Below are positions 24,463-38,620 of a DNA stretch of 42,023 nt, piece by piece (positions within the stretch are counted from its first letter, which is position 1; each line of letters starts with the position of its first letter). The notes beneath the pieces are model-generated. The model searched no databases, was not told the origin of the DNA, and saw only the letters and a list, made by a program, of their open reading frames with translations. Origin of the DNA: a virus; IMG/VR virus record IMGVR_UViG_3300006033_000048, positions 1 through 42,023 of that record. The stretch is one strand, 5' to 3'. Made by a program: the position numbers and the translations under genes.

Positions 24463-27400
24463 TGCCTTTCTATGATCAGGATGGGGAAGGCGTTCAGTCT
24501 GCCGGTTTGGCGACGTGGGGCGTTGAGCCTGAGAAGAAACAGAAACCAGAAACTGGTGAGCTATTCGAAGCCGCCTTTATGAGGGAAAACAGCTTGGGCT
24601 CTCTTGCTGCCCGTGTGTCATCCGGCCCAAATGTTCCACCTGATCCTAGGTTTGACCCATGGCAAGATATCAAGGGTTACGAGGATTATGCGGCCTCATT
24701 CATGCGGGCTAATTCTCTAGAGGACGTTGCCGCGATCAAAGGCCGGATTGATAAGGAACGTCAACGGGCAGAATTGCTTTACTCTGGCGGCGCTATGGGG
24801 ACCGTTGCCGAACTGGTAGCGGGAATTGCTGACCCTATCAATCTTATTCCGGTTGGCGGTCAAACCGTCATGGTTGGGAAGATGGGGGCGCGGGCGCTAT
24901 CGGGCGCATTGCGCGTCGGCGCGGCTGGTCTAGCTTCCGGGATCGTCCAAGAGGCCGCGTTGCAGGCGACACAAGACACTAGGACCATGGAAGAAAGCGC
25001 CGTCAATGTCGCTGCGCAGACTTTCCTTAGCGGGTTGTTGGGTGGTGCCGTGGGGATGGTCGCGGGCCGCGACATTTCAGCCCTAGCCAAGGGAGCGATG
25101 GAGGACGGAGAAAGCATCGCTCGGGATATTGAATCAAACATTCCCAATAGCGGGGGCACACTGAGCGCGGGGTTAACGCCGCCCGGTTTCGGCACGGGCT
25201 CTGTTGGCGCGGCGCAGCTAGGAAGGACGCTTGAGCAGGAAAGTATTGCTAGGCTCGGGGGTATTGAAGAGAAGCTTGCATTTTCTGCCCCAACCCTCCG
25301 AACGCAAGTTAGCCCGGTGGTGGCAACACGCTCTCTTGCGCAGGACTTAGCGGAGCAACCGCTTATAACCAAAGGAAATCTAGAGGGGCTGCCATCCCCT
25401 ACAGCGACTGAGTCAGTTATCCGCCAGTGGCAATATCCCTTGGCTAAGGGGTTGAGCGAGATAGACAATATCTTTGTAAAATACCGGATGGGCGCAGACC
25501 GCATGCCTGTTGGAAATCTTGTGAGAATCGCGGCCACCGATCTTTTTCAGAGAAGCGAGAAGCTGGGACGTGACGAATTCCTAGAGGCCGTTGGTCGGGC
25601 CATGCGCAGGAGCGATGCTCACGAGATACCGGAAGTCGCTGAAGCCGCGAAATATCTACGGAAAACAATCTTCGATCCTTTGAAAGACCTTGCTATAGAG
25701 CGCGGTCTTTTGCCCGAAGATGTGGACCCTGGCACAGCCTCGTCATATCTTATGCGGCAATATAATTACGGAAAGATCGCCGCAGAGCGGAACAAGTTCA
25801 CCGATATCCTTACTGACTGGTATGCCGCTGAACAGACAAAGAAGGCGGATATTAAGCGTCGCGTAACTGATTTGACAACAGATTTACAAGATTTGGAGGG
25901 ACGTGCTGCAAAAGCAGAAGCCCAGATTGAAGGACGCGAATCCACCCTAGCTAAAACTGAAGTGCGCCAATCTGAGGTAAAACGTCTTAGAGAGTTCGCA
26001 TATAAACGCTCCGCCAAAATGAGCGAACCGCTTGATGTGTTGAATGAGCGCATCAAGGGTCTTCAGGAACAGATTGGCCCTCATTTGAGTCAGCTAGATG
26101 AACTGAGAAATTCTATATCCGCTGAGAAGGAAAAATTTCCAGAAATCAAAGAAGCCGATGCGCTGATTTGGAAGCTCATTGGAGCCGGTAAGAAGGTCCG
26201 CGAGAGCCAAGAGATTGTAGATACCGTCGATGCTCTGAAAGAATTCTCTGATGCATTGCAGGGGGTAAGGGGAGGATTCTCAGAAGGCGTCAGGAGCGCA
26301 ACAGGAGCGGCGAAGCAAGCGCGGATTGATTTGGGGGCTACGCATCTGGTCGCGTTAGAGAAACTTAGGGCAGACATTGGAAAGGAAATTAAGCCATTCC
26401 GCAAGGAATTAAATAAGGCACGTAAGGAATATAAGGAAATACGCAAACGTCGAATCGGTCGCGCTCAGGGCGGGGCTGTTTTTGAAAGCAAGATTATTGA
26501 GCGCGGCAATTCTTTGTCAGATCAGGCTATTGGAAAAGACGCTGCTATTGAGGCATTGCGTGAAAAGGCGACGAACTGGCGTGCCCGTGCTGATGCCCGC
26601 AGGATCGAGTTGGAAAATGCTCTGATGGAATGGCAGGGAAAATCAACCCGTGGCGTTGGAAGCGCATTGGAGCGCCGCGCAAAGCTTGAAGCGGCTCGGT
26701 CGGAGGAATCAAAAGCAAGCGGGCGACGGCTGAAAAGTGCGGACAAGGATATTATGGCGGCTGCGCGTCGTGTGCTTGCGGCAGATACGGCGATGGACGC
26801 TGACGGTCTACGAGACATTGCCCGTCAAACGGTAGACCGTATCCTCGGAACTCCGGCAGGTCGGTTACCTTATGATGTGAAATCTCCTTCACCTGGATTC
26901 ATGCGTGCTGACGACACGCCAGACCTTAAAGCCGGTGCATTAAAGCAACGTGTTCTGATGATCCCAGATGAATTGATCGAGGAATATCTCGAATCAGACG
27001 TATCTCAACTGGCGAAATCCTACGTTCACACAATGGCCCCTGACGTGATCATGGCGGAACGCGGGTGGCTGGACTTTGACGAAAAGATCAAGCCAATCCT
27101 TGAGCAATATGAAGTTCTTAGGGCCAAGACAAACGACCCTAAAGAACTGGCACGCCTCAACGACAGAATGAAAGACGATATTAGAGATATCAAGGCCATA
27201 TGGGAACGCTTGCGCGGGACTTATCGGCTACCGGAAGACCCGAACAATTTGATTACACGAGGCTTTCGAATCATGCGCGATCTAAATTATATGCGCATGC
27301 TTGGCGGTATGACCATTTCTGCATTGCCTGATACCGGCGCGGTCGTAATGCAGCATGGAATGCTTAGGCTTTTCCGTGATGGTATTGCCCCCGCCGTCAG

Positions 27401-28448
27401 GAACTGGAAGACCTATCGTCTTGCGGCTGAGGAAGTGAAGATGGCCGGTGAGGCGCTTGATATGGTCCTCGACAGCCGGGCCATGTCGCTTGCTGACGTA
27501 ATGGATGATTTCGGGCGGCATTCAAAGTTTGAGCGCGGGGTGTCCGCGTTGACCGGAAAATTCGGCGTCGTCTCTTTGATGGCCCCATGGAATGCATCGC
27601 TCAAGCAATTAGTCGGCATTATCTCACAGACGCGATCTCTCCAAGCGATTGACGCATTGATAAACGGGACCATCGACGCGGCGGAAAGAACACGCCTTGC
27701 GCAATTCGGCATCGGAGAGAATGAAGCCCGCGCCATCGGCAAGCAATTCGCGGAACATGGGGAAAAGCATGGCTCGCTGTGGTGGGCAAACACAAGCGAG
27801 TGGACTGACCGAAACGCGGTAGAAGTTTATCGCGCTGCTATGTCCAAGGAAGTGAACAAGGTCATTGTCACTCCTGGTCAGGAAAAGCCCCTATGGATGA
27901 GCACTGAAGCCGGCAAGACAATAGGCCAGTTCAAATCCTTCGCGTTCTCTTCGATGCAGCGAGTGACCCTCGCTGGTCTACAGAAACGAGACGCCAACAC
28001 CATTCAGGGGGCTGCGTTGATGACCGGCCTAGGCATGCTGGCATATTTCCTGAAAACAGACCATGACCGTCTTTCGGATGATCCAGGCGTTTGGGTGAAG
28101 GAAGGCATTGACCGGTCAGGTTTGACAGGCTGGTTGTTCGAACTAAACAACATGATCGAGAAGGCGACATGGGGTGAGGTTGGCTTGTCACGACTGACCG
28201 GGCAACCTATGTCCAGCAGATATGCTAGCCGCAACTGGCTCGGGTCTTTGCTTGGCCCCTCTGCTGATCTTGTCGGGGGAGTGCAACAGATTACCGGCGC
28301 TGCCGCCTCTGGCGAATGGAACGAAACATCTACACGCGCTATGCGGCGGATGCTGCCATTCCAGAACCTTGTCGGGTTTAAGCTTGCTGTTGATCGCGCA
28401 GAAGAGGCGATTAACAATGCCTTTGGCATTCCGATGAAGAACAAGTAG
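24462..28448 (+). CDS. Large internal virion (DNA ejection) protein, gp16-like
   Basis: 1328 residues, the size of T7 gp16 (1318). The opening MPFYDQDGEG recalls the FYD/LYD tag of other proteins here. A hydrophobic stretch at about residues 105-205 (LVAGIADPINLIPVGG, LSGLLGGAVGMVAG) could cross a membrane. The middle (about 455-720) is a long charged coiled coil with many Lys/Glu (RVTDLTTDLQDLEGRAAKA). The last 400 residues (MRRMLPFQNLVGFKLAVDR near the end) are like the C-terminal parts of phage ejection proteins. It closes the rightward virion operon and faces leftward tRNA genes 20 bases on. Confidence 0.75.
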   Translation: MPFYDQDGEGVQSAGLATWGVEPEKKQKPETGELFEAAFMRENSLGSLAARVSSGPNVPPDPRFDPWQDIKGYEDYAASFMRANSLEDVAAIKGRIDKERQRAELLYSGGAMGTVAELVAGIADPINLIPVGGQTVMVGKMGARALSGALRVGAAGLASGIVQEAALQATQDTRTMEESAVNVAAQTFLSGLLGGAVGMVAGRDISALAKGAMEDGESIARDIESNIPNSGGTLSAGLTPPGFGTGSVGAAQLGRTLEQESIARLGGIEEKLAFSAPTLRTQVSPVVATRSLAQDLAEQPLITKGNLEGLPSPTATESVIRQWQYPLAKGLSEIDNIFVKYRMGADRMPVGNLVRIAATDLFQRSEKLGRDEFLEAVGRAMRRSDAHEIPEVAEAAKYLRKTIFDPLKDLAIERGLLPEDVDPGTASSYLMRQYNYGKIAAERNKFTDILTDWYAAEQTKKADIKRRVTDLTTDLQDLEGRAAKAEAQIEGRESTLAKTEVRQSEVKRLREFAYKRSAKMSEPLDVLNERIKGLQEQIGPHLSQLDELRNSISAEKEKFPEIKEADALIWKLIGAGKKVRESQEIVDTVDALKEFSDALQGVRGGFSEGVRSATGAAKQARIDLGATHLVALEKLRADIGKEIKPFRKELNKARKEYKEIRKRRIGRAQGGAVFESKIIERGNSLSDQAIGKDAAIEALREKATNWRARADARRIELENALMEWQGKSTRGVGSALERRAKLEAARSEESKASGRRLKSADKDIMAAARRVLAADTAMDADGLRDIARQTVDRILGTPAGRLPYDVKSPSPGFMRADDTPDLKAGALKQRVLMIPDELIEEYLESDVSQLAKSYVHTMAPDVIMAERGWLDFDEKIKPILEQYEVLRAKTNDPKELARLNDRMKDDIRDIKAIWERLRGTYRLPEDPNNLITRGFRIMRDLNYMRMLGGMTISALPDTGAVVMQHGMLRLFRDGIAPAVRNWKTYRLAAEEVKMAGEALDMVLDSRAMSLADVMDDFGRHSKFERGVSALTGKFGVVSLMAPWNASLKQLVGIISQTRSLQAIDALINGTIDAAERTRLAQFGIGENEARAIGKQFAEHGEKHGSLWWANTSEWTDRNAVEVYRAAMSKEVNKVIVTPGQEKPLWMSTEAGKTIGQFKSFAFSSMQRVTLAGLQKRDANTIQGAALMTGLGMLAYFLKTDHDRLSDDPGVWVKEGIDRSGLTGWLFELNNMIEKATWGEVGLSRLTGQPMSSRYASRNWLGSLLGPSADLVGGVQQITGAAASGEWNETSTRAMRRMLPFQNLVGFKLAVDRAEEAINNAFGIPMKNK

Positions 28449-28467
28449 CAAGGCATCTATGATGGTA

Positions 28468-28541
28468 TCGGCGCGGCAGGATTCGAACCTGCACAGAATG
28501 CGTTATGAGCGCAGGACTCTACCCAATTGAGCTACGCGCCG
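28468..28541 (-). tRNA. tRNA with CAT anticodon (Met, or Ile read by a modified C)
   Basis: A leftward cloverleaf of 74 bases. The acceptor stem pairs CGGCGCG with CGCGCCG over 7 bases; the D arm is GCTC/GAGT around AATTGGGTA; the anticodon loop is CTCATAA; the T arm is GCAGG-TTCGAAT-CCTGC. The last base pair of the anticodon stem (C-T) is mismatched. The 3' CCA is not encoded. Met or Ile2 cannot be told apart from the primary sequence. It is the last of the leftward RNA genes before the converging virion operon. Confidence 0.85.
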
Positions 28542-28546
28542 TTATC

Positions 28547-28623
<77 letters not shown>

Positions 28624-28639
28624 TCATATAAAAATTATG

Positions 28640-29472
28640 GAGGGCACCGCACGGGGAGGGTCATGCGGGATCGGCTTTCCAAAGCGATCTAAAGCCCCAA
28701 GCTCAATTCACTAAACGCATTATCCAATAGGCTGGCTGGATTGTCCAGCAGTGTTGTCGATAGGCGTGCAGTAACGCCTCGTTTTATTTCACCGCAAAAG
28801 CGGCGCTGTACGGACATATTTCCGGGCGGGATTCGAACCCGCGCTCTACTAAATGGGCTAGCCACCAGTGCTTTATCGCCATTGTTGCATAAGCAACAAC
28901 CATCACCAGCCAGCCGGACCACATGCAAGACAGCTTCTCGACAACCTGATTACCACGCTCCTCGTGTGGCAGCCTAACTCTGCCCCGTCTCCGGGGAATG
29001 AATGGGCGCTAGTGACAAACCAATATCGCATCACAGATTTCTCTCCACGATATACGTTCTCGACGCCTACCTGAACAGCCAAATATCGACTTTATTCGGC
29101 GCATCGCACTAGCACCCAACCCTATCCCCTTCCGGGGAAACTTGTGCCGCCCTTCCCGGCTTGGCGCTGTACGTTGCGCGTCACGTCAACCTCTGAGCAC
29201 ACGGGCTGCTCGCTCCCGAAGGCATCCTCAGTCCCCCGCTCGTCAGCCTCCGGTCGGTTCCGGACTTACGGGGCAATTCCGTGCCGGTCTTTCCCGGCTG
29301 CCAAGCGTTCTGTGATTTCCCTATACGTTTACGGAGCGGGCTTGCGGATGCTTGGCCCCGCTGATGCTTTGGGAGAGCCAAAGTTACCGATCACAGACTT
29401 TCCGAATCACGAAGGTTACTCGCTATGTAAACTTGAGGTGCGCTCCAACCCACACTTTTTGTCGTCAACTCC
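28640..29472 (-). ncRNA. Candidate giant structured noncoding RNA (GOLLD/ROOL-like), leftward
   Basis: About 830 bases between tRNA-Pro and tRNA-Thr with no convincing reading frame. On the leftward strand they fold into many short stems: CCCCG-GAGA-CGGGG and CCCC-GGAA-GGGG with GNRA loops, CTTTGG/CCAAAG, GCCGG/CCGGC, TCCGG/CCGGA, AGGCGT/ACGCCT, GCTGGA-CAA-TCCAGC, TTGTTGC/GCAACAA. Long-range helices are 28753-28760 with 28938-28945 (8 pairs) and 29309-29316 with 29390-29397 (8 pairs). A T-arm-like hairpin lies at 28826-28842. A promoter is just upstream. Size, tRNA neighbours and phage setting fit the GOLLD or ROOL classes, but no consensus was compared, so identity is inference; a decayed tRNA cluster is the alternative. 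Confidence 0.5.
28822..28863 (-). other. tRNA-like element lacking an anticodon arm, inside the structured RNA
   Basis: On the leftward strand TAGCCCATTTAGTAGAGC, close to a tRNA D arm, is followed at once by a perfect T arm (GCGGG-TTCGAAT-CCCGC at 28826-28842). No anticodon arm is present and the flanks (CTGG against CCGG) give at most four acceptor pairs. It is either a decayed tRNA or a T-loop module of the larger RNA. Confidence 0.45.
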
Positions 29473-29478
29473 AAAAAC

Positions 29479-29506
29479 ACCATACCAGTTAATAAGATCG
29501 CGTCAA
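29479..29506 (-). promoter_or_regulatory. Leftward sigma-70-type promoter before the structured RNA
   Basis: Leftward TTGACG (29501-29506), a 16-base spacer, then TATGGT (29479-29484). The -35 matches five of six consensus bases and the -10 four of six. Transcription would begin near 29472 and read through the structured region towards tRNA-Pro and the CAT tRNA. No other strong promoter is seen before those tRNAs, so they may share it. Confidence 0.45.
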
Positions 29507-29601
29507 CCAAAAAATTAGACCCTATGCATTTTTCTTTACGCCATATATGAATCGTGCGAATATATCAGAGCAAACCGCTTATGGGATTGGTGGGACATAG
29601 C

Positions 29602-29826
29602 ATGATAACCGCAAAGCAAATCAGGATGGCCCGCATGGGCATAGGCCTAACTCAACAGCAGCTTGCCAAAGCGGCAAAGATCACAATGGCTACGTTGAAC
29701 CATGTTGAGAACGGCCACGGTTGCCGAATGACAACCATTAACAGAATTGTTGATGCCCTGTCTGCATACGGCGTTAAATTCGGTGGCAATGATTTAATGC
29801 TTTCCGTGTCCATCCCAAGGAAGTAA
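29602..29826 (+). CDS. XRE-family helix-turn-helix regulator
   Basis: 74 residues from the ATG at 29602, which follows GGTGGGA; earlier starts at 29554 (GTG) and 29581 add a tail outside the fold. The sequence MITAKQIRMARMGIGLTQQQLAKAAKITMATLNHVENG is a standard XRE/Cro-CI helix-turn-helix (scaffold helix, LTQQQLAKAAKIT as helix-turn, TLNHVENG as recognition and next turn), then a short extension ending LMLSVSIPR. It is a lone rightward gene among leftward RNA genes and abuts tRNA-Thr. It may regulate the RNA region or lysogeny. Confidence 0.75.
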   Translation: MITAKQIRMARMGIGLTQQQLAKAAKITMATLNHVENGHGCRMTTINRIVDALSAYGVKFGGNDLMLSVSIPRK

Positions 29827-29901
29827 TGGAGCCTCCATCCAGACTTGAACTGGAAATTATGGATTACAAATCCAGTGTTATGCCAATTTAACTATAGAGG
29901 C
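29827..29901 (-). tRNA. tRNA-Thr (TGT anticodon)
   Basis: A leftward cloverleaf of 75 bases including encoded CCA. Acceptor GCCTCTA pairs with TGGAGGC (one G-T); D arm GTTA/TAAC; anticodon loop TTTGTAA with anticodon TGT on a stem CTGGA/TCCAT, outer pair C-T mismatched; T arm TCCAG-TTCAAGT-CTGGA. Discriminator T is unusual for a bacterial tRNA-Thr but is followed directly by CCA. It shares the last base of the regulator gene on the other strand. Confidence 0.85.
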
Positions 29902-29926
29902 TCGTAGATCGGTTGTAAAATTATAA

Positions 29927-29954
29927 GGCGCTCTACCATCTGAGCTAATCCGGC
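29927..29954 (-). other. 5' half of a tRNA gene (acceptor strand and D arm), remnant
   Basis: On the leftward strand GCCGGAT (acceptor 5' strand) is followed by TAGCTCAGATGGTAGAGC, a perfect D arm, and then GCC. After that the sequence becomes A/T-rich and no anticodon arm, T arm or matching ATCCGGC acceptor half follows before tRNA-Thr. It is therefore a truncated tRNA. Phages often carry half tRNAs at attachment or recombination sites, but the usual attachment core is the 3' half. Confidence 0.55.
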
Positions 29955-29971
29955 ACAAGAAAACGTGCCGG
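29950..29971 (-). other. Perfect 7-base-pair hairpin after the winged-helix gene
   Basis: CCGGCAC (29950-29956) and GTGCCGG (29965-29971) pair around an 8-base loop immediately after the stop of the gene ending at 29972. No T-tract follows on the leftward strand, so a simple terminator is unlikely. One arm shares bases with the tRNA fragment, so it may have arisen from it. Confidence 0.4.
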
Positions 29972-30301
29972 CTATTCCTTCGGCGTTACCAGCACGTCGA
30001 CGGGAATGTAGTTCTCATCAAATGTTTTGTTAAGCGAAAAATTGGCGTGCTGGACTCCCGTTACGCCATCATTCGATGCATAACAAGCATTGTTGTCATA
30101 CACAAATTCCTTAATTCCCGCTGCACCCGACAGAGCCCGCATGTGCTTTATAGCCGTATTTGAGGAAATGCCCAAGGCGCGGGCGACATCATCTCCAATT
30201 ACGCCAATATGGCGATTGCTCTCGACTCGTTTCTTGATATAGGAAAACACACGCAATCGCGTGATTTGCCCTTTAATCTTAAGCCGTTGTTTCATGTTCA
30301 T
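29972..30301 (-). CDS. Winged-helix DNA-binding protein
   Basis: 109 residues. The first 70 form a basic N-terminus (MKQRLKIKGQITRLRVFSYIKKR) and a helix-turn-helix: IGVIGDDVARALGISSNTAIKHMRALSGAAGI, where DVARALGIS and NTAIKHMRAL are the two helices. A beta wing (IKEFVYDNNACY) follows. The rest (FSLNKTFDENYIPVDVLVTP) may be an effector or dimer part. It is preceded by a small membrane-peptide gene (30305-30469) ending 4 bases earlier, so the two form a leftward pair. Target unknown. Confidence 0.7.
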   Translation of the reverse strand: MNMKQRLKIKGQITRLRVFSYIKKRVESNRHIGVIGDDVARALGISSNTAIKHMRALSGAAGIKEFVYDNNACYASNDGVTGVQHANFSLNKTFDENYIPVDVLVTPKE

Positions 30302-30304
30302 CTG

Positions 30305-30469
30305 TCAATCCAATCGTTCCCAAGGGTTTTTAATCACCTCGATCTCTTTTGACATGTCCTTTGTCATAAACGGCCATACTGATACGGCGACAGCTATCGC
30401 CAGAGCAATGATGATTACCGCCGCTACAAGGGTCAATCCCCACGCGATCATGAAAATAATTTCACCCAC
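30305..30469 (-). CDS. 54-residue single-span membrane peptide
   Basis: Starts with GTG at 30469 behind a perfect ribosome site (GGAGG, six bases before it). The centre is one long hydrophobic segment (WGLTLVAAVIIIALAIAVAV), then a charged tail (MTKDMSKEIEVIKNPWERLD). Its stop precedes the winged-helix start by four bases. Short one-span peptides in this style are common in phage early or lysis-neighbour regions and can influence holin timing or membrane proteins; here no function can be assigned. Confidence 0.65.
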   Translation of the reverse strand: MGEIIFMIAWGLTLVAAVIIIALAIAVAVSVWPFMTKDMSKEIEVIKNPWERLD

Positions 30470-30558
30470 GGCACGCCTCCGTTTGCATGGTGGTTGTTAG
30501 AATTTATTGTATCCGATCATACCAAGAAATACCACCCATATAAACGGCGTATGCATAC

Positions 30559-30586
30559 TTGACCAAATATTGCGTTATGTTGTATT
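30559..30586 (+). promoter_or_regulatory. Candidate rightward promoter of the lysis cassette
   Basis: TTGACC (30559-30564), a 16-base A/T-rich spacer and TGTATT (30581-30586). Five of six -35 bases and four of six -10 bases fit the sigma-70 consensus. It lies 33 bases before the endolysin ATG at 30619. Confidence 0.4.
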
Positions 30587-30618
30587 GTTTTTCTTCCGAG
30601 AAAAAGGGAATAACTGGT

Positions 30619-31047
30619 ATGCCCATTCCTCGCGGTATTCGGATGAATAATCCGATGAATATCAAGGAATTGCCGGGAGACAAAACCAAGTGGGTTGGCG
30701 AGCGAGCCACTGACGACGATCCAATTTTTGAGGAATTCAACACGGTTGAATATGGCATCCGAGCGGGAGTAAAGATTCTGCTTGGATACCAGACGCGCTA
30801 TGGTCTCAAAACCATTCGACAAATCGTCTCCCGCTACGCCCCTCCTGAAGACGACAACAACACCCCGGCTTATATGATGCACATGGCCGATGTGTTGGGT
30901 GTCGGGGTGGACGATACTATAGACCTTACCGACGCTAACACCATGTGTGTCCTGGTTGCTGGAATTATTCTCCACGAGAACGGACAGCAGCCTTACCCGC
31001 AAAGGACCATCGCCCGTGGGGTTGATATGGGCCTTGGCTTAATCTAG
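30619..31047 (+). CDS. Endolysin / structural lytic protein (P5-like, lysozyme-type)
   Basis: 142 residues from the ATG at 30619, which has AGGGA upstream; an earlier ATG at 30559 overlaps the promoter and adds an unlikely tail. The start PRGIRMNNPMNIKELPGD is the family opening (RGIRNNNPxNI), followed by W-G-E-R-A, FEEFNTVEYGIRAGVKILLG, IRQIVSRYAPPEDDNNTPAY and a closing IILHENGQQPYPQRTIARGV. These are muralytic phage proteins that I know from virion and lysis contexts, where Glu in the HENG motif is a conserved residue. Next come holin and spanin genes, so it should be the phage endolysin. No signal peptide. Confidence 0.75.
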   Translation: MPIPRGIRMNNPMNIKELPGDKTKWVGERATDDDPIFEEFNTVEYGIRAGVKILLGYQTRYGLKTIRQIVSRYAPPEDDNNTPAYMMHMADVLGVGVDDTIDLTDANTMCVLVAGIILHENGQQPYPQRTIARGVDMGLGLI

Positions 31048-31056
31048 GAGAAAGCA

Positions 31057-31272
31057 GTGGAAAGCAAATCTATCTTCACTTCCAAAACCTTTTGGGTCAA
31101 CGTCGTTGCCTTTGGTGCTGCTGTTGCCGGTGCCTTCGGCATTGATCTTGGCCTTGATGCCGAAACGCAGACCGCGATTGTTGGCGGCGCCATGGCTGTG
31201 GCTAACATCGTTCTTCGTCTGGTCACCAAGGAATCGGTGCATGTGGTCAACCCTCCTAGCGGCAATTCTTGA
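31057..31272 (+). CDS. Holin-like two-span membrane protein
   Basis: 71 residues beginning with GTG at 31057, six bases after a perfect AGGAG. A charged N-terminus (MESKSIFTSKT) leads into two hydrophobic segments (FWVNVVAFGAAVAGAFGI and TAIVGGAMAVANIVLRL), then a short hydrophilic tail. Two spans with both ends cytoplasmic is a class II holin pattern. It is nine bases downstream of the endolysin, and its 3' end carries the start of the next gene in another frame. Confidence 0.7.
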   Translation: MESKSIFTSKTFWVNVVAFGAAVAGAFGIDLGLDAETQTAIVGGAMAVANIVLRLVTKESVHVVNPPSGNS

Positions 31273-31435
31273 TTTCATTGTTAAGGCATTGCCCGTCACT
31301 GCTGCATTTGTGGCAGGACGGGCAAGCGCCAAACCTGATGGAACTGAACATGCCCGCGAAGCTTCAAGCATTGACGAAGACGTTGCTAGTCTGTCTGACG
31401 CCGCTCTTAATCGCGAGTTGTTCGACAGGAAGTGA
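31241..31435 (+). CDS. Inner-membrane spanin-like protein (Rz-like), nested in the lysis cassette
   Basis: 64 residues starting inside the holin gene (ATG at 31241, AAGGA eight bases earlier). An N-terminal anchor (LLAAILDFIVKALPVTAAFVA) is followed by a charged periplasmic helix (HAREASSIDEDVASLSDAAL NRELFDRK in the tail). It is shorter than typical Rz proteins but overlaps the lipoprotein gene that follows by 86 bases, the classical nested Rz/Rz1 arrangement. The alternative is a second holin; the length makes the call uncertain. Confidence 0.55.
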   Translation: MWSTLLAAILDFIVKALPVTAAFVAGRASAKPDGTEHAREASSIDEDVASLSDAALNRELFDRK

Positions 31436-31544
31436 ATGCGCCTGGGTTAAGCGCATCACCATGTCTGAAGGCGATCAGGTGGCGCGTCAGACGGCAGAGC
31501 AAATCGTCGCGCATAACCGAAAGGTTAATGAGTTTTGCCGCTAA
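31350..31544 (+). CDS. Outer-membrane spanin lipoprotein (Rz1-like)
   Basis: 64 residues from ATG at 31350, inside the previous gene in another frame. The N-terminus is a lipoprotein signal (LQALTKTLLVCLTPLLIAS) with lipobox LIAS-C, so Cys near residue 24 would be lipidated. The mature part reads CAWVKRITMSEGDQVARQTAEQIVAHNRKVNEFC, the Rz1/o-spanin pattern (C-x-W-x-x-I, D-x(4)-T-A-x-Q-I-x-x-H-N, terminal C). Such proteins join outer to inner membrane in lysis of Gram-negative cells, which supports a Gram-negative host. Its end overlaps the end of the leftward HNH gene by four bases. Confidence 0.8.
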   Translation: MPAKLQALTKTLLVCLTPLLIASCSTGSECAWVKRITMSEGDQVARQTAEQIVAHNRKVNEFCR

Positions 31545-31876
31545 TCTTTTTTCCTGTGCGGTGAAATTCTCCACAGCATGGCTGCGATAGCCAGTAGATC
31601 AACCCCATATCGCGCCGCGAATGTGATCCACCCGATATTATGCCCTTCGGCATGATGGGCAGAGCACAACGGAACGACGCAATCATCTGGGGCTTTCACA
31701 CCCATTCCGGCGTTACCATCCTGTGAAACGTGATGCGACTCAATCTTTCCACCACATTCCCCACGCTTTGACAAAATGCAATCATGACCGCGTACCCACT
31801 TAAGGTGCCCTGGGCTACGCACGCGGTCACTTTCCCGTACACCCATGGGCTGGCGTTTACGTCGGCTGATAAGCAT
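31541..31876 (-). CDS. HNH nuclease of the Ref/DUF968 type
   Basis: 111 residues. WVRGHDCILSKRGECGGKIESHHVSQDGNAG, then DDCVVPLCSAHHAEGHNIGW match the family in which a short Cys-His-His core (SHHV, LCSAHH) forms a compact HNH nuclease such as phage P1 Ref or DUF968 proteins. The rest (TFAARYGVDLLAIAAMLW) is the usual C-terminal helix. Ref-like nucleases assist recombination by cutting RecA-coated DNA; the same operon also holds Erf and YqaJ. The start is at the ATG at 31876, which overlaps the stop of the next upstream gene (TAATG). It is the last gene of the leftward operon. Confidence 0.7.
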   Translation of the reverse strand: MLISRRKRQPMGVRESDRVRSPGHLKWVRGHDCILSKRGECGGKIESHHVSQDGNAGMGVKAPDDCVVPLCSAHHAEGHNIGWITFAARYGVDLLAIAAMLWRISPHRKKD

Positions 31877-32052
31877 TATTCCTCTTCCTCGTCATAAACA
31901 TTCCGGTATAAGGAAAAATCATCAGGTTCCAGTGGCGCAATTTCATCGGCAAGCTTTCGCATCGCCATTACGGCAACGCATGTATCTGTTCCGCTCTCTT
32001 CGATGATGCGCCGAATCATGTCAATAAATTCGTCTTCGCACATGCGTTTCAT
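31876..32052 (-). CDS. 58-residue acidic small protein
   Basis: Starts at the ATG at 32052, with GAGGG upstream, and ends at a TAA overlapping the next ATG. The sequence is helical and acidic (EDEFIDMIRRIIEESGT, DTCVAVMAMRKLADEI) with a DEEEE end. I do not recognise it. The six-copy intercistronic element (copy 1) lies directly upstream at 32065-32084. Confidence 0.6.
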   Translation of the reverse strand: MKRMCEDEFIDMIRRIIEESGTDTCVAVMAMRKLADEIAPLEPDDFSLYRNVYDEEEE

Positions 32053-32064
32053 GGTTCCCTCGCT

Positions 32065-32084
32065 ATTCTATTTAACGGAGGTCA
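32065..32084 (-). repeat. Intercistronic element, copy 1 of 6 (degenerate)
   Basis: On the leftward strand it reads TGACCTCCGTT, then A/T-rich DNA in place of TGATCAAATTG. It sits between the ASCH stop and the ribosome site of the gene at 31876-32052. Confidence 0.5.
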
Positions 32085-32089
32085 GGCGG

Positions 32090-32620
32090 CTACAGAAATG
32101 TCGGCAGGGGTGCCGGTTTTTCTTTGGGTTTAAATTCAGGCTCCCGCCGCAGCGGGCTTTCCGGCCACGCCGTCATCCACGGCTTCGGCGCGTCCAGATC
32201 GCCGTGCCGTGACCAGTGGAAATAGCCGAGGGCGCCAACTGCCGGGATAGGCTGGACGGCACACTGATTGGCGAGAACCAACCCGCGCGGGCCGAAGAAC
32301 CACGGGCTGGCGTGGTCTTTGACGATTTCGGTGATGGTGGCCGCGCCGATAATTGCGCCGCGCACCAAATCCTTGGGCAACGGACAATTGACGCCCAGGC
32401 GTGCCATGAAGTCGAACGCGTCCTCGTATTCGTCCCGCGTCATTCCCTTTGCCGCGTGAATCGCCACGGGCCTTGGATCGAACCCGGCCTTGCTGACCGC
32501 GAATGTAGATCGGTTCTCGATATCCTTGACGCCCGCGCAGATAGCCCAGGCCCAGGGCTGGCGGACGGACAGCGCCAAATCCGGCAAGTCGAAATCGGTG
32601 TCCCAATTGCTGTTGGTCAT
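32090..32620 (-). CDS. ASCH-domain protein
   Basis: 176 residues. DLALSVRQPWAWAICAGVKD, then IENRS, is the ASCH fold opening (LSVRQPWAxxIxxGxKxxENR); FFGPRGLVLANQ and the closing strand GALGYFHWS complete the small beta-barrel at about residues 15-140. ASCH proteins bind RNA or nucleotides; phage members are thought to act on RNA or nucleosides during takeover. The C-terminus is a Pro-Glu-Lys-rich tail. A good ribosome site (GTGAGGAATT) precedes the ATG. Copies of the intercistronic element flank the gene. Confidence 0.75.
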   Translation of the reverse strand: MTNSNWDTDFDLPDLALSVRQPWAWAICAGVKDIENRSTFAVSKAGFDPRPVAIHAAKGMTRDEYEDAFDFMARLGVNCPLPKDLVRGAIIGAATITEIVKDHASPWFFGPRGLVLANQCAVQPIPAVGALGYFHWSRHGDLDAPKPWMTAWPESPLRREPEFKPKEKPAPLPTFL

Positions 32621-32633
32621 GGATAATTCCTCA

Positions 32634-32659
32634 CAATTTGATCATTGGAACCGAGGTCA
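32634..32659 (-). repeat. Intercistronic element, copy 2 of 6
   Basis: Leftward TGACCTCGGTT, four to five bases, TGATCAAATTG, then the ribosome site of the ASCH gene. The TGA is a stop codon for the short frame just upstream (32657-32728). Confidence 0.6.
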
Positions 32660-32728
32660 TTTAGACCGGTGGCGGTGGTCTCTAGGGCTGTCGCCCGTGA
32701 GCAATGAGTCCCAAGGTGGTTCTTTCAT
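32657..32728 (-). CDS. Possible 23-residue peptide
   Basis: A short leftward frame from ATG at 32728, right behind the stop of the gene at 32737-33174, to the TGA that forms the start of repeat copy 2. It has no clear ribosome site, so it would rely on re-initiation. The peptide is hydrophilic and basic at its end. The stop placement at the repeat, as for four other genes here, is the main reason to list it; it fills what is otherwise an empty gap. Confidence 0.25.
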   Translation of the reverse strand: MKEPPWDSLLTGDSPRDHRHRSK

Positions 32729-32736
32729 GGCGAAGA

Positions 32737-33174
32737 TCAGCCGGTGGACAGGATGTGAAAGCGGCCGTCCCGGAACTCGAATGGGACGGAGCGCCACGAC
32801 CACGCGTAGATGTTGACCTCGTATGATCCGGGTCCATCACCGTCGATGATGACCTGTCGGGCGAGATCGTCAGCGCTATCGGCGATGCGGTCATCGCCGA
32901 TGACCCGGATGCAGAGGTGTCCACCCTCAGGTGGAGACGGGATGTCAGCGTCACAGGTCCACGTATCGCTGTCAGTCACTGTGATCCTGTTTCGCCCCAA
33001 ACTGACGCACCAGTCGAACTTGACCACCTCCCCCTCGGTCAGTGGCATCGGATCACACTCTTCGTCGGCCGCCGCCAGTCCGGCGCAACCAGGAGCAACC
33101 CAATCGTCCGGGCTGTCCCGGAGATCGGGGATCATCTCGTCCTGATAATCGGCAGGGAGCCATTTCTTGCTCAT
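32737..33174 (-). CDS. Phage early protein, function unknown
   Basis: 145 residues from the ATG at 33174, six bases after GGAG; a GTG at 33186 is also open. The N-terminus is helical and acidic (KKWLPADYQDEMIPDL), the rest is beta-prone: EVVKFDWCVSLGRNRITVTD, GHLCIRVIGDDRI, SYEVNIYAWSWRSVPFEFRDGRF. No motif recognised. Repeat copy 3 sits directly before it (upstream). Confidence 0.55.
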   Translation of the reverse strand: MSKKWLPADYQDEMIPDLRDSPDDWVAPGCAGLAAADEECDPMPLTEGEVVKFDWCVSLGRNRITVTDSDTWTCDADIPSPPEGGHLCIRVIGDDRIADSADDLARQVIIDGDGPGSYEVNIYAWSWRSVPFEFRDGRFHILSTG

Positions 33175-33185
33175 CGAAATCTCCA

Positions 33186-33212
33186 CAATTTAATCAACTA
33201 AACCGAGGTTTA
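33186..33212 (-). repeat. Intercistronic element, copy 3 of 6
   Basis: Leftward TAAACCTCGGTT, five bases, TGATTAAATTG and then GTGGAG, the ribosome site for the gene starting at 33174. The TAA is the stop of the gene at 33210-33410. Confidence 0.6.
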
Positions 33213-33410
33213 AGAGGTCGCGGCGGCATGGTCCTGAAGCTTGCGCACTGCCATATACAGAGCGGTGCGTAACCCCTCTTTGGTGCGGGCCAGTTCCACG
33301 ATTTCAAAATCACCCGAATCGGAAGGAAGACTGGCCTCGATAACCCATCCGCCGCCTTGCTGAGGCGAAACGCCCATGCGATGCGTTTCGATAATGTCGA
33401 GTTCGGTCAT
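33210..33410 (-). CDS. 66-residue small protein, function unknown
   Basis: Starts after a clear AGGAG seven bases upstream. The sequence MTELDIIETHRMGVS, GGGWVIEASLPSDSG and LRTALYMAVRKLQDH suggests a small alpha-beta fold: a strand pair followed by one helix. No cysteines or known motifs. Ends at a TAA inside repeat copy 3, so its 3' end is defined by the element. Confidence 0.6.
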   Translation of the reverse strand: MTELDIIETHRMGVSPQQGGGWVIEASLPSDSGDFEIVELARTKEGLRTALYMAVRKLQDHAAATS

Positions 33411-33433
33411 GTCGATATCTCCTGGTTAGGCGG

Positions 33434-33628
33434 TCAAATGCCGGCGCCGTCGTTGACGGTGATGCCGCGCCATTGCTCCAGGTGCGGCACCGCCCACGGG
33501 GACTTATTTGCTTGCAGCGCCGCACCGCCAGTCCCGAAGGCGATGGCGAGACACAGCCCGCCTTCGGCCAAGCGGATAAGCTGGGCCAGTTCACTCTCTT
33601 TCAGAGGGATGAGCCGTTCTTTGGTCAT
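33434..33628 (-). CDS. 64-residue small protein, function unknown
   Basis: The ATG at 33628 follows AAAGGAG at suitable distance; an ATG at 33643 lies inside that site and is less likely. Helical N-terminus (RLIPLKESELAQLIRLAEGG), then a hydrophobic Gly-rich stretch (LCLAIAFGTGGAAL) and a short acidic end. Not long enough to be sure of a membrane span. Unknown function. Confidence 0.55.
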   Translation of the reverse strand: MTKERLIPLKESELAQLIRLAEGGLCLAIAFGTGGAALQANKSPWAVPHLEQWRGITVNDGAGI

Positions 33629-33640
33629 GGCTGCTCCTTT

Positions 33641-33666
33641 CAATTTGATCGGTGAACGGGAGGTTA
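33641..33666 (-). repeat. Intercistronic element, copy 4 of 6
   Basis: Leftward TAACCTCCCGTT, CACC, GATCAAATTG and then AAAGGAG, the ribosome site of the gene at 33434-33628. The TAA is the stop of the gene at 33664-33843. Confidence 0.6.
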
Positions 33667-33843
33667 TTCAGTGGCTTCATTAACCAAGATTTCAGCCACG
33701 GTTTCCGCAACAGTCATGGCGTCGTCATAGCTTTCAGTGATGTCTCCAACGGCATTGTCGGACTCTTGATGTGTCCATCCTGTCCGATCCATTACGCCAA
33801 TGACGACGGCAGCCCTAAAGTCTCGATAGCTGAAATTGTCCAT
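33664..33843 (-). CDS. 59-residue acidic small protein
   Basis: ATG at 33843 after AAAGGGG. The sequence is helical and acidic: MDNFSYRDFRAAVVIGVMDR, HQESDNAVGDITESYDDAMT, VAETVAEILVNEAT. No known motif. Its stop codon forms the first bases of repeat copy 4. Too short for most automated gene calls. Confidence 0.6.
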   Translation of the reverse strand: MDNFSYRDFRAAVVIGVMDRTGWTHQESDNAVGDITESYDDAMTVAETVAEILVNEATE

Positions 33844-33865
33844 CTGTCGCCCCTTTCAAAAGGCT

Positions 33866-33892
33866 GAATTGAATCGGTAAAAACGAGGTCTA
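33866..33892 (-). repeat. Intercistronic element, copy 5 of 6
   Basis: Leftward TAGACCTCGTT, TTTACC, GATTCAATTC, followed some 15 bases later by the AAAGGGG ribosome site of the gene at 33664-33843. Here the TAG is out of frame with the upstream gene, which stops at 33907. Confidence 0.55.
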
Positions 33893-33906
33893 GGAGGCTG
33901 AAAACT

Positions 33907-34587
33907 TCAGGAAGCGCGCTCGTCCGCATAGGCGGTGCGCGCAATGGAAATCAGCAGATCGCGGAACGCGGGCGGCGTGGCATTGCGCTTCTTGGTCTTG
34001 TCCTTCCCGCCCATCATGGCGACGACGCCAATCTTGCGGGCCTTGCTCTCGCCATAGCGGGCGATCATCCAAGCAGGAACGACAGCCCTGGACTTATCGG
34101 AATTGATATCGAAGGCGCCGAAATTTACCCCAACAGCATAGAGAAACGTGGCTTTGCGGGCTGGGTGGCCATATCGCCATTGCTCGACATAGATTGACCG
34201 GCCGCTATACTCGTCAGGGGATGACCAGCCCGCGCCCGGCGTGGGCGCCGGGAGGCCGAAGCCAGGCCGCTCGGGATGGTCTGGGGAGTTCCAGGCGCCG
34301 CTATATGCCGGATGCTCGATCACACCGCCGACGCGGCGCACCGCATCAAGCGCCGCCGCAAAGCAACCGCCATCATCGCCAAATTTGAACTGGTGAGGCT
34401 TGCGAGTGGAACCGTGCCAAAACCTTCCCCACCGCTGACATTCGGGATGCGCTACAACCGGCCACGGGCCTCGATACAAGCGGGCGTCCCGGCTCTTGTC
34501 CCAAGGATCAACGCCGGCCAGACCGAAATAGGCGCCGTCTTTCTCGACGTACAAGGCCACGACGGCATCTGAAAACTTACCCTTCAT
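33907..34587 (-). CDS. Phage protein of a widespread unknown family
   Basis: 226 residues. I recognise the pattern from many phages of proteobacteria without a known function: VVALYVEKDGAYFGLAGVD, RLYRGPWPVVAHPECQRWG, DDGGCFAAALDAVRRVGGVI followed by EHPAYSGAW, and VEQWRYGHPARKATFLYAVG. The conserved His-Pro-x-Cys, the Asp-Gly-Gly-Cys-Phe and the Glu-His-Pro triplet look like an active site. VIEHPA vaguely resembles the ENP/ENV motif of cytosine methyltransferases, but I do not claim that role. The end (ISIARTAYADE) is helical. No ribosome site of note. Confidence 0.65.
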   Translation of the reverse strand: MKGKFSDAVVALYVEKDGAYFGLAGVDPWDKSRDARLYRGPWPVVAHPECQRWGRFWHGSTRKPHQFKFGDDGGCFAAALDAVRRVGGVIEHPAYSGAWNSPDHPERPGFGLPAPTPGAGWSSPDEYSGRSIYVEQWRYGHPARKATFLYAVGVNFGAFDINSDKSRAVVPAWMIARYGESKARKIGVVAMMGGKDKTKKRNATPPAFRDLLISIARTAYADERAS

Positions 34588-35027: not shown

Positions 35028-35535
35028 TGTTACCTGAATTCTCCGCTAATGTTTCTGTGTTGACGCCGATGATTCCAGCGATGATATCCAAGACAGCTTG
35101 TTTGCTTGCCTGGAACTCCTTCTTGCCCATCGCCCTAAGCGATTGCGACTTGGCCGTATAGACGGTAACAACGCAATCGGAAACCGTGACCACGGCAAAA
35201 GTATCCATCGGCTTAATGAACGAAGCCAATCTTACCGCATCGTCCCGGCTTGGTGCAACAATTTCCCGATGATCGGCGAAACCCGCTTTGATCAATGCCC
35301 ACTTCCGTAGATGCTCCGGGCTCGGGATGCGGTCAGCTAACCGCTCTGGAAGATTAGCCCAAGCCTCGTTGATTCCTGCGAAATAGGCACGATGGCTTTT
35401 AACTGAGCGCTCTTCGATCTCGGCAAGCTGATACAATTCTCCGACCACATACCGGGCGTCGCATTCCTTCGCGTATCTCGGCAGAGGCCGGAAGCAATCA
35501 CCTTCCCAGCGGCACGGAACAGGCGCCGCCATCAT
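35020..35535 (-). CDS. Phage protein of unknown function next to the YqaJ exonuclease
   Basis: 171 residues. RWEGDCFRPLPRYAKECDAR, then VVGELYQLAEIEERS, HRAYFAGINEAWANLPERLA, PEHLRKWALIKAGFADHREI and VTVYTAKSQSLRAMGKKEF make up a family that I know from phages of alphaproteobacteria, always near recombination genes; the function is not known. Possible starts ATG at 35535 or 35532 follow AGGAG; the first overlaps the upstream stop (ATGA). Probably translationally coupled to the exonuclease gene. Confidence 0.65.
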   Translation of the reverse strand: MMAAPVPCRWEGDCFRPLPRYAKECDARYVVGELYQLAEIEERSVKSHRAYFAGINEAWANLPERLADRIPSPEHLRKWALIKAGFADHREIVAPSRDDAVRLASFIKPMDTFAVVTVSDCVVTVYTAKSQSLRAMGKKEFQASKQAVLDIIAGIIGVNTETLAENSGNNV

Positions 35536-36149
35536 GCGCTCCTAAGCATGGAAACAATTTCGTCCCGCTCTTTGATCAAGGCCCAGAGACCAGATTCAAG
35601 CCCATAGACAACGGCATTAATCGGCTCATGCCTAACAACAAGCATCGGCAAATCAGGGTGCCAGAAACACAGGTCAACCCATTTCCTTTCTGCGATCAGC
35701 ATTTGCCCCTGCGTCTGCTGGACGTAATCAGGCGGCGACGTCCCATGCTTGCGGTGGTACATCATCGCCTTGATGTGGTTTTCCGCCTTTAGGCACTTGA
35801 TTTCAACAAGACCGTCGTCACCACAAAGGGCATCGGGCGAACAGCCATAGGTCCCGGTGTCGTTGGTAACAAACCCAACCCGCGTCAATGAACGATCAGT
35901 GTAGAATGAGTAGGCGGCGAACGCCCGCTCCTCCAATTCCTTCCCGCGCTCTGTCCATGCGCTCCCTTGCCACTGATCAAGGGTCTTGCCCGCGTACAAT
36001 TCCCCCGCTAGGGTGATTGCATATCCTGACCTGGATTTGCTTTCCTCACCCTTGCTGGTGACGATGGAGGAAAACTCCGATGCCGTGGGCATTCCGGCCC
36101 GGAGTGAATGCCATTCATCGGAGCCTTGTTGTACGTCATGGATGATCAT
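35532..36149 (-). CDS. YqaJ-type recombinase exonuclease (lambda Exo-like)
   Basis: 205 residues from ATG at 36149. DVQQGSDEWHSLRAGMPTAS is the family opening (QGSxEWxxxRxGxxTAS); GTYGCSPDALCGDDGLVEIK gives the catalytic Asp and the Glu-x-Lys of the PD-(D/E)xK nuclease core at about residues 107-120; PDYVQQTQGQMLIAERKWVD completes it with the Gln-containing helix. The enzyme digests one strand of double-stranded DNA ends and hands single strands to an annealing protein, here the Erf protein 1.2 kb upstream. Together they form a phage recombination pair. Confidence 0.85.
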   Translation of the reverse strand: MIIHDVQQGSDEWHSLRAGMPTASEFSSIVTSKGEESKSRSGYAITLAGELYAGKTLDQWQGSAWTERGKELEERAFAAYSFYTDRSLTRVGFVTNDTGTYGCSPDALCGDDGLVEIKCLKAENHIKAMMYHRKHGTSPPDYVQQTQGQMLIAERKWVDLCFWHPDLPMLVVRHEPINAVVYGLESGLWALIKERDEIVSMLRSA

Positions 36150-36194
36150 TAGTCGCCCCCATTGCACTTGAGGATAGTTTCGCTGGAATTGGGT

Positions 36195-37221: not shown

Positions 37222-37340
37222 CACATCACCCCCTTAATCAGAAGAACCAACCCACCCACCAGAAGGAACGCGATCTCAGCGCACACAACCTGCATGCACA
37301 GTTCGGTAAAGCCAACGGCTAGTTGATCACGGGTCATCAT
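37221..37340 (-). CDS. 39-residue membrane peptide
   Basis: Begins at ATG 37340 (or 37337) inside the 3' end of the Erf gene and ends in an ATGA overlap with the next gene. A short hydrophilic start (MMTRDQLAVGFTELCMQ) precedes a hydrophobic segment (IAFLLVGGLVLLI). Its location between two coupled genes makes a real product likely. Function unknown. Confidence 0.55.
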   Translation of the reverse strand: MMTRDQLAVGFTELCMQVVCAEIAFLLVGGLVLLIKGVM

Positions 37341-38112
37341 GGTTTTCCGCCTTCATCTTTGACCGCTTCTTGTCGATGGCCCTATACGCCCCCGGCAAAT
37401 CCTTGTTCAGGATATCGGCTAGACAGGAAACGCCCATCAGCCCACAGAACGCGCCCACATCGGCGTTTACTTCGGCCAACGCTTCTTGCAGTTCCTGTAG
37501 CTGGATGTCATTGATCTTCATCCCAGCGGATGAGTTATGCCCGTCGTCGTCTTGATCGGAGGTTGCCAAGCCCAGAGCCGCGAGAAGAGTATAGCGCTCA
37601 AGGTATGATACCGTGCTTCCAACGGCCTGGATTGCGTTCTTCGTCCCGCTGTTATCAGCCCCGGCTTGCAGGCTGTTTTCTTCAGAATGCCCAAGGGCAT
37701 GACGGACAACGCAGGTAACACAGATTTTACCGCCGTCAACCTGTTCCGTCACCCACCGATAGGAAAGTCCGACTTGAGACAGCAGCGGGTCAACGATTGA
37801 ACAAACGTTGTCCAAGGTAGCGTGCCAATATTGGATTGAATTGTCTTTATTCCTGCTTTCAAAGCCGACTTTCTTGTTCTTCTCGATCCTGGGCAAAGCC
37901 GCCTTGAACTCAGCCATCGCGGCGACAAACGCTTTCCGCGCCTCGTTTGCCTCCATGCGCTCTTGAAGGGCGATCAGCCGTTCAACCGTCTCGATAGGAG
38001 CGTTGTTGGCAACGGCTGTCATCACCATCCGCATAGCCGGCGACATGCTGTCGTCATGCGGGATTACGGCGGTGTCTGATGCAATTACAATATCGGTTGG
38101 GGTGCTAGACAT
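37327..38112 (-). CDS. Erf-family single-strand annealing protein
   Basis: 261 residues from ATG at 38112, GGAG nine bases before it; an earlier start at 38196 lies in the upstream gene. The core, residues about 50-190 (IALQERMEANEARKAFVAAM, IEKNKKVGFESRNKDNSIQY, YRWVTEQVDGGKICVTCVVR, AIQAVGSTVSYLERYTLLAA) is the Erf annealing domain, where VSYLERYTLxxxLGL is diagnostic. A Glu-rich C-terminal segment (QLQELQEALAEVNADV) follows. Erf pairs complementary single strands in phage recombination and circularisation, with the YqaJ exonuclease in the same operon. Confidence 0.85.
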   Translation of the reverse strand: MSSTPTDIVIASDTAVIPHDDSMSPAMRMVMTAVANNAPIETVERLIALQERMEANEARKAFVAAMAEFKAALPRIEKNKKVGFESRNKDNSIQYWHATLDNVCSIVDPLLSQVGLSYRWVTEQVDGGKICVTCVVRHALGHSEENSLQAGADNSGTKNAIQAVGSTVSYLERYTLLAALGLATSDQDDDGHNSSAGMKINDIQLQELQEALAEVNADVGAFCGLMGVSCLADILNKDLPGAYRAIDKKRSKMKAENHDDP

Positions 38113-38620
38113 TGCGGTTGGACTCCAATTGGTAGCGAACTGCGGCGGCAATTTTTTGGGCAGCGGGAAGGCTCCCCATGCGCTGATTGCACTCACGGCA
38201 CGCTAGGGCTCTGTTGCTCAGGTGATCTGGACCGCCTGCGGACAGAGGGACAATGTGTTCAGTCGTGGCGGTGTCCACGGATAGTCCGGCCCCGCAATAG
38301 ATGCAGTTCGGCCCATCACGTTCAGCCAGCGTCCGAAACTCCCTGCGAGTTTTGCTCGTGCCGCGCTTCACCTTCTCGACAGCCCGCCACTCTTTCCCGG
38401 TGCGAAAGGCCACAAAGGCCCTATCCGCACCGTTCATCCATGACGTGATATTTCCCGACGAGTTGGTGTAGACGATTCCGATACCCTCGTCGGTCAGGTA
38501 GCGAGCGGCTTCGTAAGGATTGGTCGTTCCAACCTCGGCAGACCCACGTTCAATCAGCCACGACTTGAACTGCGGCCACGCCTTCTGGAATTCCTTTGCA
38601 GTCCGGGGGAGATGTCTCAT
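38105..38620 (-). CDS. HNH endonuclease (restriction-type zinc finger)
   Basis: 171 residues from ATG at 38620, which overlaps the upstream stop and follows GGAGG. The C-terminal 75 residues hold CIYCGAGLSVDTATTEHIVP and LSNRALACRECNQRMGSLPA: Cys-x2-Cys, the Glu-His-Ile-Val-Pro HNH strand, Asn-Arg and a second Cys-x2-Cys, a complete HNH motif. The N-terminal part (EFQKAWPQFKSWLIERGSA) may bind DNA. The stop overlaps the Erf start region by eight bases. It may be a homing or a recombination nuclease. Confidence 0.75.
   Translation of the reverse strand: MRHLPRTAKEFQKAWPQFKSWLIERGSAEVGTTNPYEAARYLTDEGIGIVYTNSSGNITSWMNGADRAFVAFRTGKEWRAVEKVKRGTSKTRREFRTLAERDGPNCIYCGAGLSVDTATTEHIVPLSAGGPDHLSNRALACRECNQRMGSLPAAQKIAAAVRYQLESNRNV

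Follow-up and report, generated by a model that had tools for sequence, protein, structure and literature searches.

A short RNA element of about 26 nt, carried between tRNA genes on the minus strand of a 42,023-nt viral stretch (IMG/VR record IMGVR_UViG_3300006033_000048, here called the window), recurs in many phages with unrelated flanks, and sequence comparison indicates that its stem covaries strongly. Its consensus comprises a hairpin of variable sequence, P1, then UG-RCA, a hairpin P2 of the form NNNNG GAAAGA CNNNN, and RC. The element is tentatively proposed to be a cis-acting punctuation mark of RNA, a signal for a 5' end or for processing. It is new in the sense of being uncatalogued in Rfam 15 and in the open-access literature: Rfam 15 placed no family on it in the window or in the roughly 60 loci scanned, and a search of open-access papers did not find the motif in print in a phage context.

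The original prediction had taken some 830 nt of this region for a single giant RNA, a candidate of the GOLLD or ROOL type. A structured RNA beside phage tRNAs was right in kind; what other phages conserve, however, is the element of about 26 nt with its variable 5' hairpin, and not the whole length. When all 4227 Rfam families were run over the region with cmscan, the three tRNAs alone reached gathering thresholds, and no family of the GOLLD or ROOL kind appeared at E ≤ 10. These giant RNAs are likewise noncoding and close to phage tRNAs, but they measure 600-900 nt, whereas the recurring unit described here has about 26 nt and lacks an Rfam match at E ≤ 10. The many hairpins of the region, which had also been cited, are no evidence, because its 881 nt fold unexceptionally as a whole (z -1.44 for the minus strand, -2.71 for the plus strand; 20 shuffles). 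The 8-bp helix TCTGTGAT/ATCACAGA is present as described, and the only outlying 150-nt segment is 29145-28996 (z -5.27, 100 dinucleotide shuffles). No homologue of the full region was found by sensitive blastn against 50,697 phage records or by other searches, and no close relative of the window phage with its 1328-aa or 926-aa protein; among distant relatives (tblastn, about 38% identity), the three records inspected contained no comparable annotated RNA region.

The absence of genes from the gap (28640-29520) was borne out, since only overlapping open reading frames of at most 124 aa are found on either strand, and a coding gene was rejected for want of a credible frame. The placement on the same strand as the flanking tRNAs also held, all three being on the minus strand. 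The predicted promoter TTGACG-16-TATGGT exists as a sequence, but such sites are not above chance in the region (3 against 1.3 expected). A feature overlooked at first is a T-arm, GCGGG-TTCGAAT-CCCGC (28842-28826), which matches the tmRNA model at 17.7 bits, below gathering; a possible 5-bp acceptor (UCCGG 28918-28914 / CCGGA 28825-28821) would complete a tRNA-like remnant, at which ARAGORN called no tRNA. A tmRNA in the window was rejected, as the T-arm stands alone and no tag-like frame was found there, and a YrlA match spanning the tRNA pair was rejected as a tRNA artefact. Beside tRNA-Thr, a further tRNA-like fragment on the plus strand (ggcgctctaccatctgagctaatccggcac, 29919-29956) is probably a decayed tRNA.

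Table 1. Features in and around the gap between the tRNA genes of the window
Feature	Position	Strand	Basis or description
tRNA-Met (CAT)	28468-28541	minus	ARAGORN; Rfam 60.1 bits
tRNA-Pro (TGG), downstream of element	28547-28623	minus	ARAGORN; Rfam RF00005, 65.4 bits
tRNA-like remnant	28821-28918	minus	T-arm match to tmRNA model, and sequence
Local hairpin domain	29003-29118	minus	closed by 12-bp helix TGGGTGCTAGTG/CACTAGCGCCCA, 29118-29107/29014-29003
Partial stem-sequence repeat	29144-29164	minus	without UGRCA, without GAAAGA loop; missed by model R1
Core element	29278-29303	minus	covariance model R1, 35.4 bits, E 9.7e-9; linker UGGCA 29303-29299; stem P2 GCCGG 29298-29294/CCGGC 29287-29283; loop GAAAGA 29293-29288; 3' ACGGA
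Candidate 5' helix TCTGTGAT/ATCACAGA	29309-29397	minus	helix list; 29397-29390/29316-29309
Promoter-like TTGACG-16-TATGGT	29479-29506	minus	TG preceding second hexamer
XRE-type small regulator gene, between tRNAs	29554-29826	plus
tRNA-Thr (TGT), upstream of element	29827-29901	minus	ARAGORN; Rfam 61.2 bits

The UGRCA linker, the G-C-closed GAAAGA loop and the paired stem found in the window make its copy a member of the new family. The duplicated hairpin motif that had been predicted thus survives by half: the part at 29281-29300 is the core of the element, and the partial repeat is not a second copy. Model R1, which has 26 positions and was built from 59 copies with the window left out, was searched against the window with filters off; nothing but the core fell below E 1, the next-best place having E 1.1. 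The core is intact, matching 22 of 23 consensus letters. A helix that would compete for the linker (GCCAAGC 29356-29350 / GCTTGGC 29306-29300) is also available, which leaves the candidate 5' helix an ambiguous counterpart of P1; nothing clear lies directly 3' of the element, which is about 660 nt upstream of tRNA-Pro. A minus-strand transcript of the window, predicted at this place, would carry one copy.

Other copies came to light through blastn matches no better than E~3, three of which converge on the same 24-29 nt. One, in the Stenotrophomonas phage Pokken, lies directly before a tRNA cluster; another has a permuted tmRNA and tRNA-Phe as its neighbours in the Xanthomonas phage Rb1; and the third falls in the early leader of phage BUCT708. 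The word common to these three phages is UGRCAGCCGGGAAAGACCGGC. A pattern scan found the element in at least 120 IMG/VR contigs with unrelated flanks, and named phages that carry it include those of Escherichia, Cronobacter, Klebsiella, Acinetobacter, Pseudomonas, Pantoea, Xanthomonas and others. The exact 22-mer occurs in 100 bacterial contigs, whose titles name Pseudomonadota, Bacteroidota, Bacillota, Spirochaetota, Planctomycetota, Chloroflexota, Omnitrophota and Patescibacteria, among others; the count of at least eight host phyla comes from organism names in such titles, and some of the contigs are from metagenome bins and may be phage. The element is rare in host genomes proper (2 of 148 Bacteroidota genomes), E. 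coli genomes gave no match to a 101-nt query, and plasmids gave a single, chance-like match of 23 nt.

Copies were found by sequence patterns, and conservation within the first pattern is therefore by construction. The pattern TGACACSSNGGAAAGACNSSG fixes only one base pair, together with G/C classes, and among the matches listed 123 of 125 stems are fully Watson-Crick, of eight kinds. The cleanest test of covariation used 1.03 Mb of loci chosen by a different pattern, with 25 permuted words as control. There, GGAAAGAC occurs 58 times, flanked by a 4-bp stem in 14 cases (0.7 expected) and accompanied by UGRCA in 12 (0.2 expected); UGRCA and a paired stem come together eight times, with six different stems, against 0.00 expected. 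Both counts are fair tests of covariation. The copy in Piffle, located between two tRNAs, reads TGACA-GATCG-GAAAGA-CGATC. In an alignment of 59 copies, 16 more types of base pair were seen, and covariation scored 0.745 (0.156 when shuffled); the 100% pairing there reflects in part the selection of paired copies. The loop and its closing pair are nearly invariant, while the stem bases vary freely together and some stems include G-U pairs.

On the 5' side of this core, 36% of copies have a hairpin P1, variable in both loop and sequence, whose 3' end stands exactly 3 nt ahead of RCA; at other offsets the figure is about 10%. Some two thirds of the copies show no strong local P1. Downstream on the sense strand, T-arms are found within 140 nt of 36 of 229 copies (15.7%, against 2.0% in the control, p 7e-16), and on the opposite strand of 2 of 227. 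Terminators (4.4% against 0.6% in the control) and starts of open reading frames (20.5% against 13.7%) also follow in the sense direction. Nine of the 17 same-strand downstream tRNAs lie only 4-8 nt from the element, and the acceptor stem mostly starts 4-6 nt past P2. Many loci have a long hairpin, P3 (RCCAWCA...UGWUGGU), immediately 3' of P2; P3 ends such as CCTAACAAG...CTTGTTAG resemble an integron attC site in a few loci, but most misfit, and this candidate was dropped.

Several other RNAs were noticed at these loci. A few nucleotides past the element stand tRNA-like phage RNAs with normal acceptor and T arms and an abnormal or absent anticodon arm; some end in CCA, and many are missed by ARAGORN (loci L013, 4700-6300, L257, L279, L316 and L336). 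Three Pokkenviruses (L002, L352, L353) have a strongly conserved noncoding region of about 400 nt from the element to tRNA-Ile, one hairpin of which shows a compensatory change from C-G to U-A, and their later tRNAs are widely gapped. A second conserved module, GGTGAATGCGNAGGCTGATNCGC ... GCCGGAGATCAGCACCGGCCACC, with complementary loops CUGAU/AUCAG and no Rfam match of its own, lies 3' of hairpin P3 and occurs in at least 120 viral contigs (L355-L471, L472-L475); 438 phage records were matched by a 41-nt blastn query that included the module together with the strand before it. Frames resembling tmRNA tags follow a conserved TTTAGAAACTGACCACAAAGATAAAT (ANDDVVLMAA*, ANDDLMLMAA*, ANDEQFLAVA*, ANEEMYLAVA*, and ANDDLMMVAA* in phage P1, the last spotted by eye at L472 ~648). 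They sit in noncoding tRNA or late-leader regions of phages P1, HK633, IME11 and others (L473 1301, L475 1318, L089/L126 ~3150, L358, L368, L376, L409) and are 14-fold enriched near elements; Rfam tmRNA matches are weak, and these may possibly be unrecognised phage tmRNAs.

A different setting is offered by a Thiotrichales metagenome bin (G004, L479-L498) with 41 copies of the element. Several loci have HEARO (omega) RNA 19-54 nt upstream of the element; for several of the copies read in this bin the distance is 19-44 nt, with one HEARO match above the Rfam threshold (110 bits) and the others at 52-71. After the element, a leader supplies CUCGGAGACAUUG just before the AUG, and the distance from element to AUG is 75-86 nt for HU, KaiB, ACP and similar genes; further downstream genes encode a class-I W/Y tRNA synthetase and a response regulator. 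Several of the loci examined in the bin combine HEARO, element and leader, inserted just upstream of housekeeping start codons. With HEARO on the 5' side and varied genes on the 3' side, the element stands between one RNA and the next product. HEARO, an omega RNA of the IsrB/IscB type, is itself a separate RNA, absent near most copies and near that of the window.

Phage pairs were also found that share a flank up to the element on one side and are unrelated beyond it. Breaks at the element with the upstream flank shared were counted in 24-25 independent groups, and with the downstream flank shared in 13-15, against only 0-7 groups at control positions shifted by 250-900 nt. Counted by pairs, 38% lose their homology precisely at the element, compared with 2-15% at shifted positions. 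The Cronobacter phages ESP2949-1 and CS01 carry an insert precisely 3' of P2 that CRES7 lacks, and Piffle has one extra copy of the element. Genes for an Erf-like annealing protein (37327-38196) and a RecE/YqaJ-like exonuclease (35532-36167) lie on the minus strand of the window, and their products could promote exchange by short homology at the element.

The indifference of the element to the type of product, its placement on the sense strand and its fixed short spacing to tRNAs together make RNA punctuation the best explanation, with a confidence that falls somewhat short of probable. Acting in cis, the element would mark the boundary between an upstream RNA and an RNA product whose first base follows within a few nucleotides, and most likely would set or protect that product's 5' end. 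A presumed cut, autocatalytic or made by a nuclease, might fall at or next to the element, after which the hairpin might separate or stabilise the products; this mechanism is presumptive as a whole. Against it stand the two thirds of copies without a strong P1 and the distance of the window copy from tRNA-Pro, and antitermination would explain equally well the copies that precede terminators or lie in early leaders of phages. The broader idea of an undescribed, phage-wide RNA, self-cleaving or cleavage-directing, that would free tRNAs, tRNA-like RNAs, omega RNAs and mRNAs of phages and IscB/IsrB-type elements is doubtful. Theta (HDV-like) ribozymes of gut phages also lie beside phage tRNAs and have been proposed to form tRNA ends, but they sit at tRNA 3' ends and adopt an HDV double pseudoknot (PMC10879173). 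The element, in contrast, precedes tRNAs and has a fold of two simple hairpins, and a ribozyme of this kind was rejected, as no locus scanned gave an Rfam ribozyme match. The main rival, which is possible though not probable, is an RNA antiterminator, whose P1 and P2 would bind the elongating RNA polymerase so that terminators or untranslated stretches could be passed without a phage protein. The putRNA of HK022 acts alone on RNA polymerase, and is about 70 nt long with two long stems, both of which have conserved parts (PMC9378689). Like putL and putR, the element has two adjacent hairpins, is short and heads phage transcripts, and it may need no partner protein; put is a candidate for a similar way of working. 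Sense copies heading early operons beside cI-type repressors (mEp390, P7641, BUCT708, Microbulbifer), a copy about 800 nt before terminase, copies in tRNA arrays, the excess of intrinsic terminators downstream, the wide host range and the lack of a noticeable accompanying protein gene are all consistent with antitermination. The two RNAs nevertheless differ in sequence and size, and identity with put by sequence was rejected since the early-region stretch searched in HK022 (27000-34000) contains no GAAAGA or GGAAGA hairpin of the element's type; the unconserved sequence of P1, the copies about 80 nt before single housekeeping genes and the fixed spacing of 4-8 nt to tRNAs, which would be unexpected of an antiterminator, also speak against this reading.

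A protein might instead recognise the GAAAGA loop on its G-C-closed stem, as at a boxB-like site, and thereby control termination, decay or translation. The nut boxB of lambda, which occurs in phage leaders, has a stem of 5 bp and a GNRA-like loop rich in purines, and here too a near-invariant loop and closing pair on a freely covarying stem, as well as the GNR(NN)A-like form of the loop, recall protein-binding hairpins. The element differs from boxB in its hexaloop, in the UGRCA that apparently takes the place of boxA and in having no evident partner protein gene; since the hosts belong to at least eight phyla, a single phage protein is disfavoured, though a conserved host protein would be possible, and this reading is considered unlikely. 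The breakpoints on both sides of the element could also reflect a role in recombination, in which the hairpin would be a DNA or single-strand junction for exchange of phage RNA or gene cassettes. The exact breaks of homology, the ESP2949-1/CS01 insert, the extra copy in Piffle and the annealing protein and exonuclease of the window phage agree with this; but short-homology exchange at any conserved functional sequence yields the same mosaic, and the strict sense orientation and the G-U pairs in stems favour a function in RNA, so that a recombination site appears decidedly unlikely. It is less credible still that the whole 830 nt or so form a new large ornate RNA, unrelated to GOLLD and ROOL, with the hairpin as a part: the region is noncoding and flanked by tRNAs, has some long helices and one outlying fold (z -5.3), and resembles the large, strongly conserved noncoding tRNA gaps of Pokkenvirus, IME11, phage P1 and HK633, but its total fold is near random, it has no full-length homologue among those searched, and unrelated sequence follows the element in other copies. 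Decay of a functionless tRNA-array spacer, the hairpin being a fossil, would account for the tRNA-like remnant, the degenerate second motif and the unexceptional fold; against this the core has stayed intact, which makes such an origin hardly believable.

A hairpin that looked weak in one unplaced contig has thus led to a family of hundreds. The occurrence of one strictly conserved element, absent from Rfam 15, in unrelated phages with hosts in at least eight phyla implies that phage RNA biology includes a common, basic step as yet without a name. It has long been asked by what means the tRNAs and small RNAs of phages are excised from long transcripts or shielded from termination, and the position of the element next to tRNAs offers a handle on the question.
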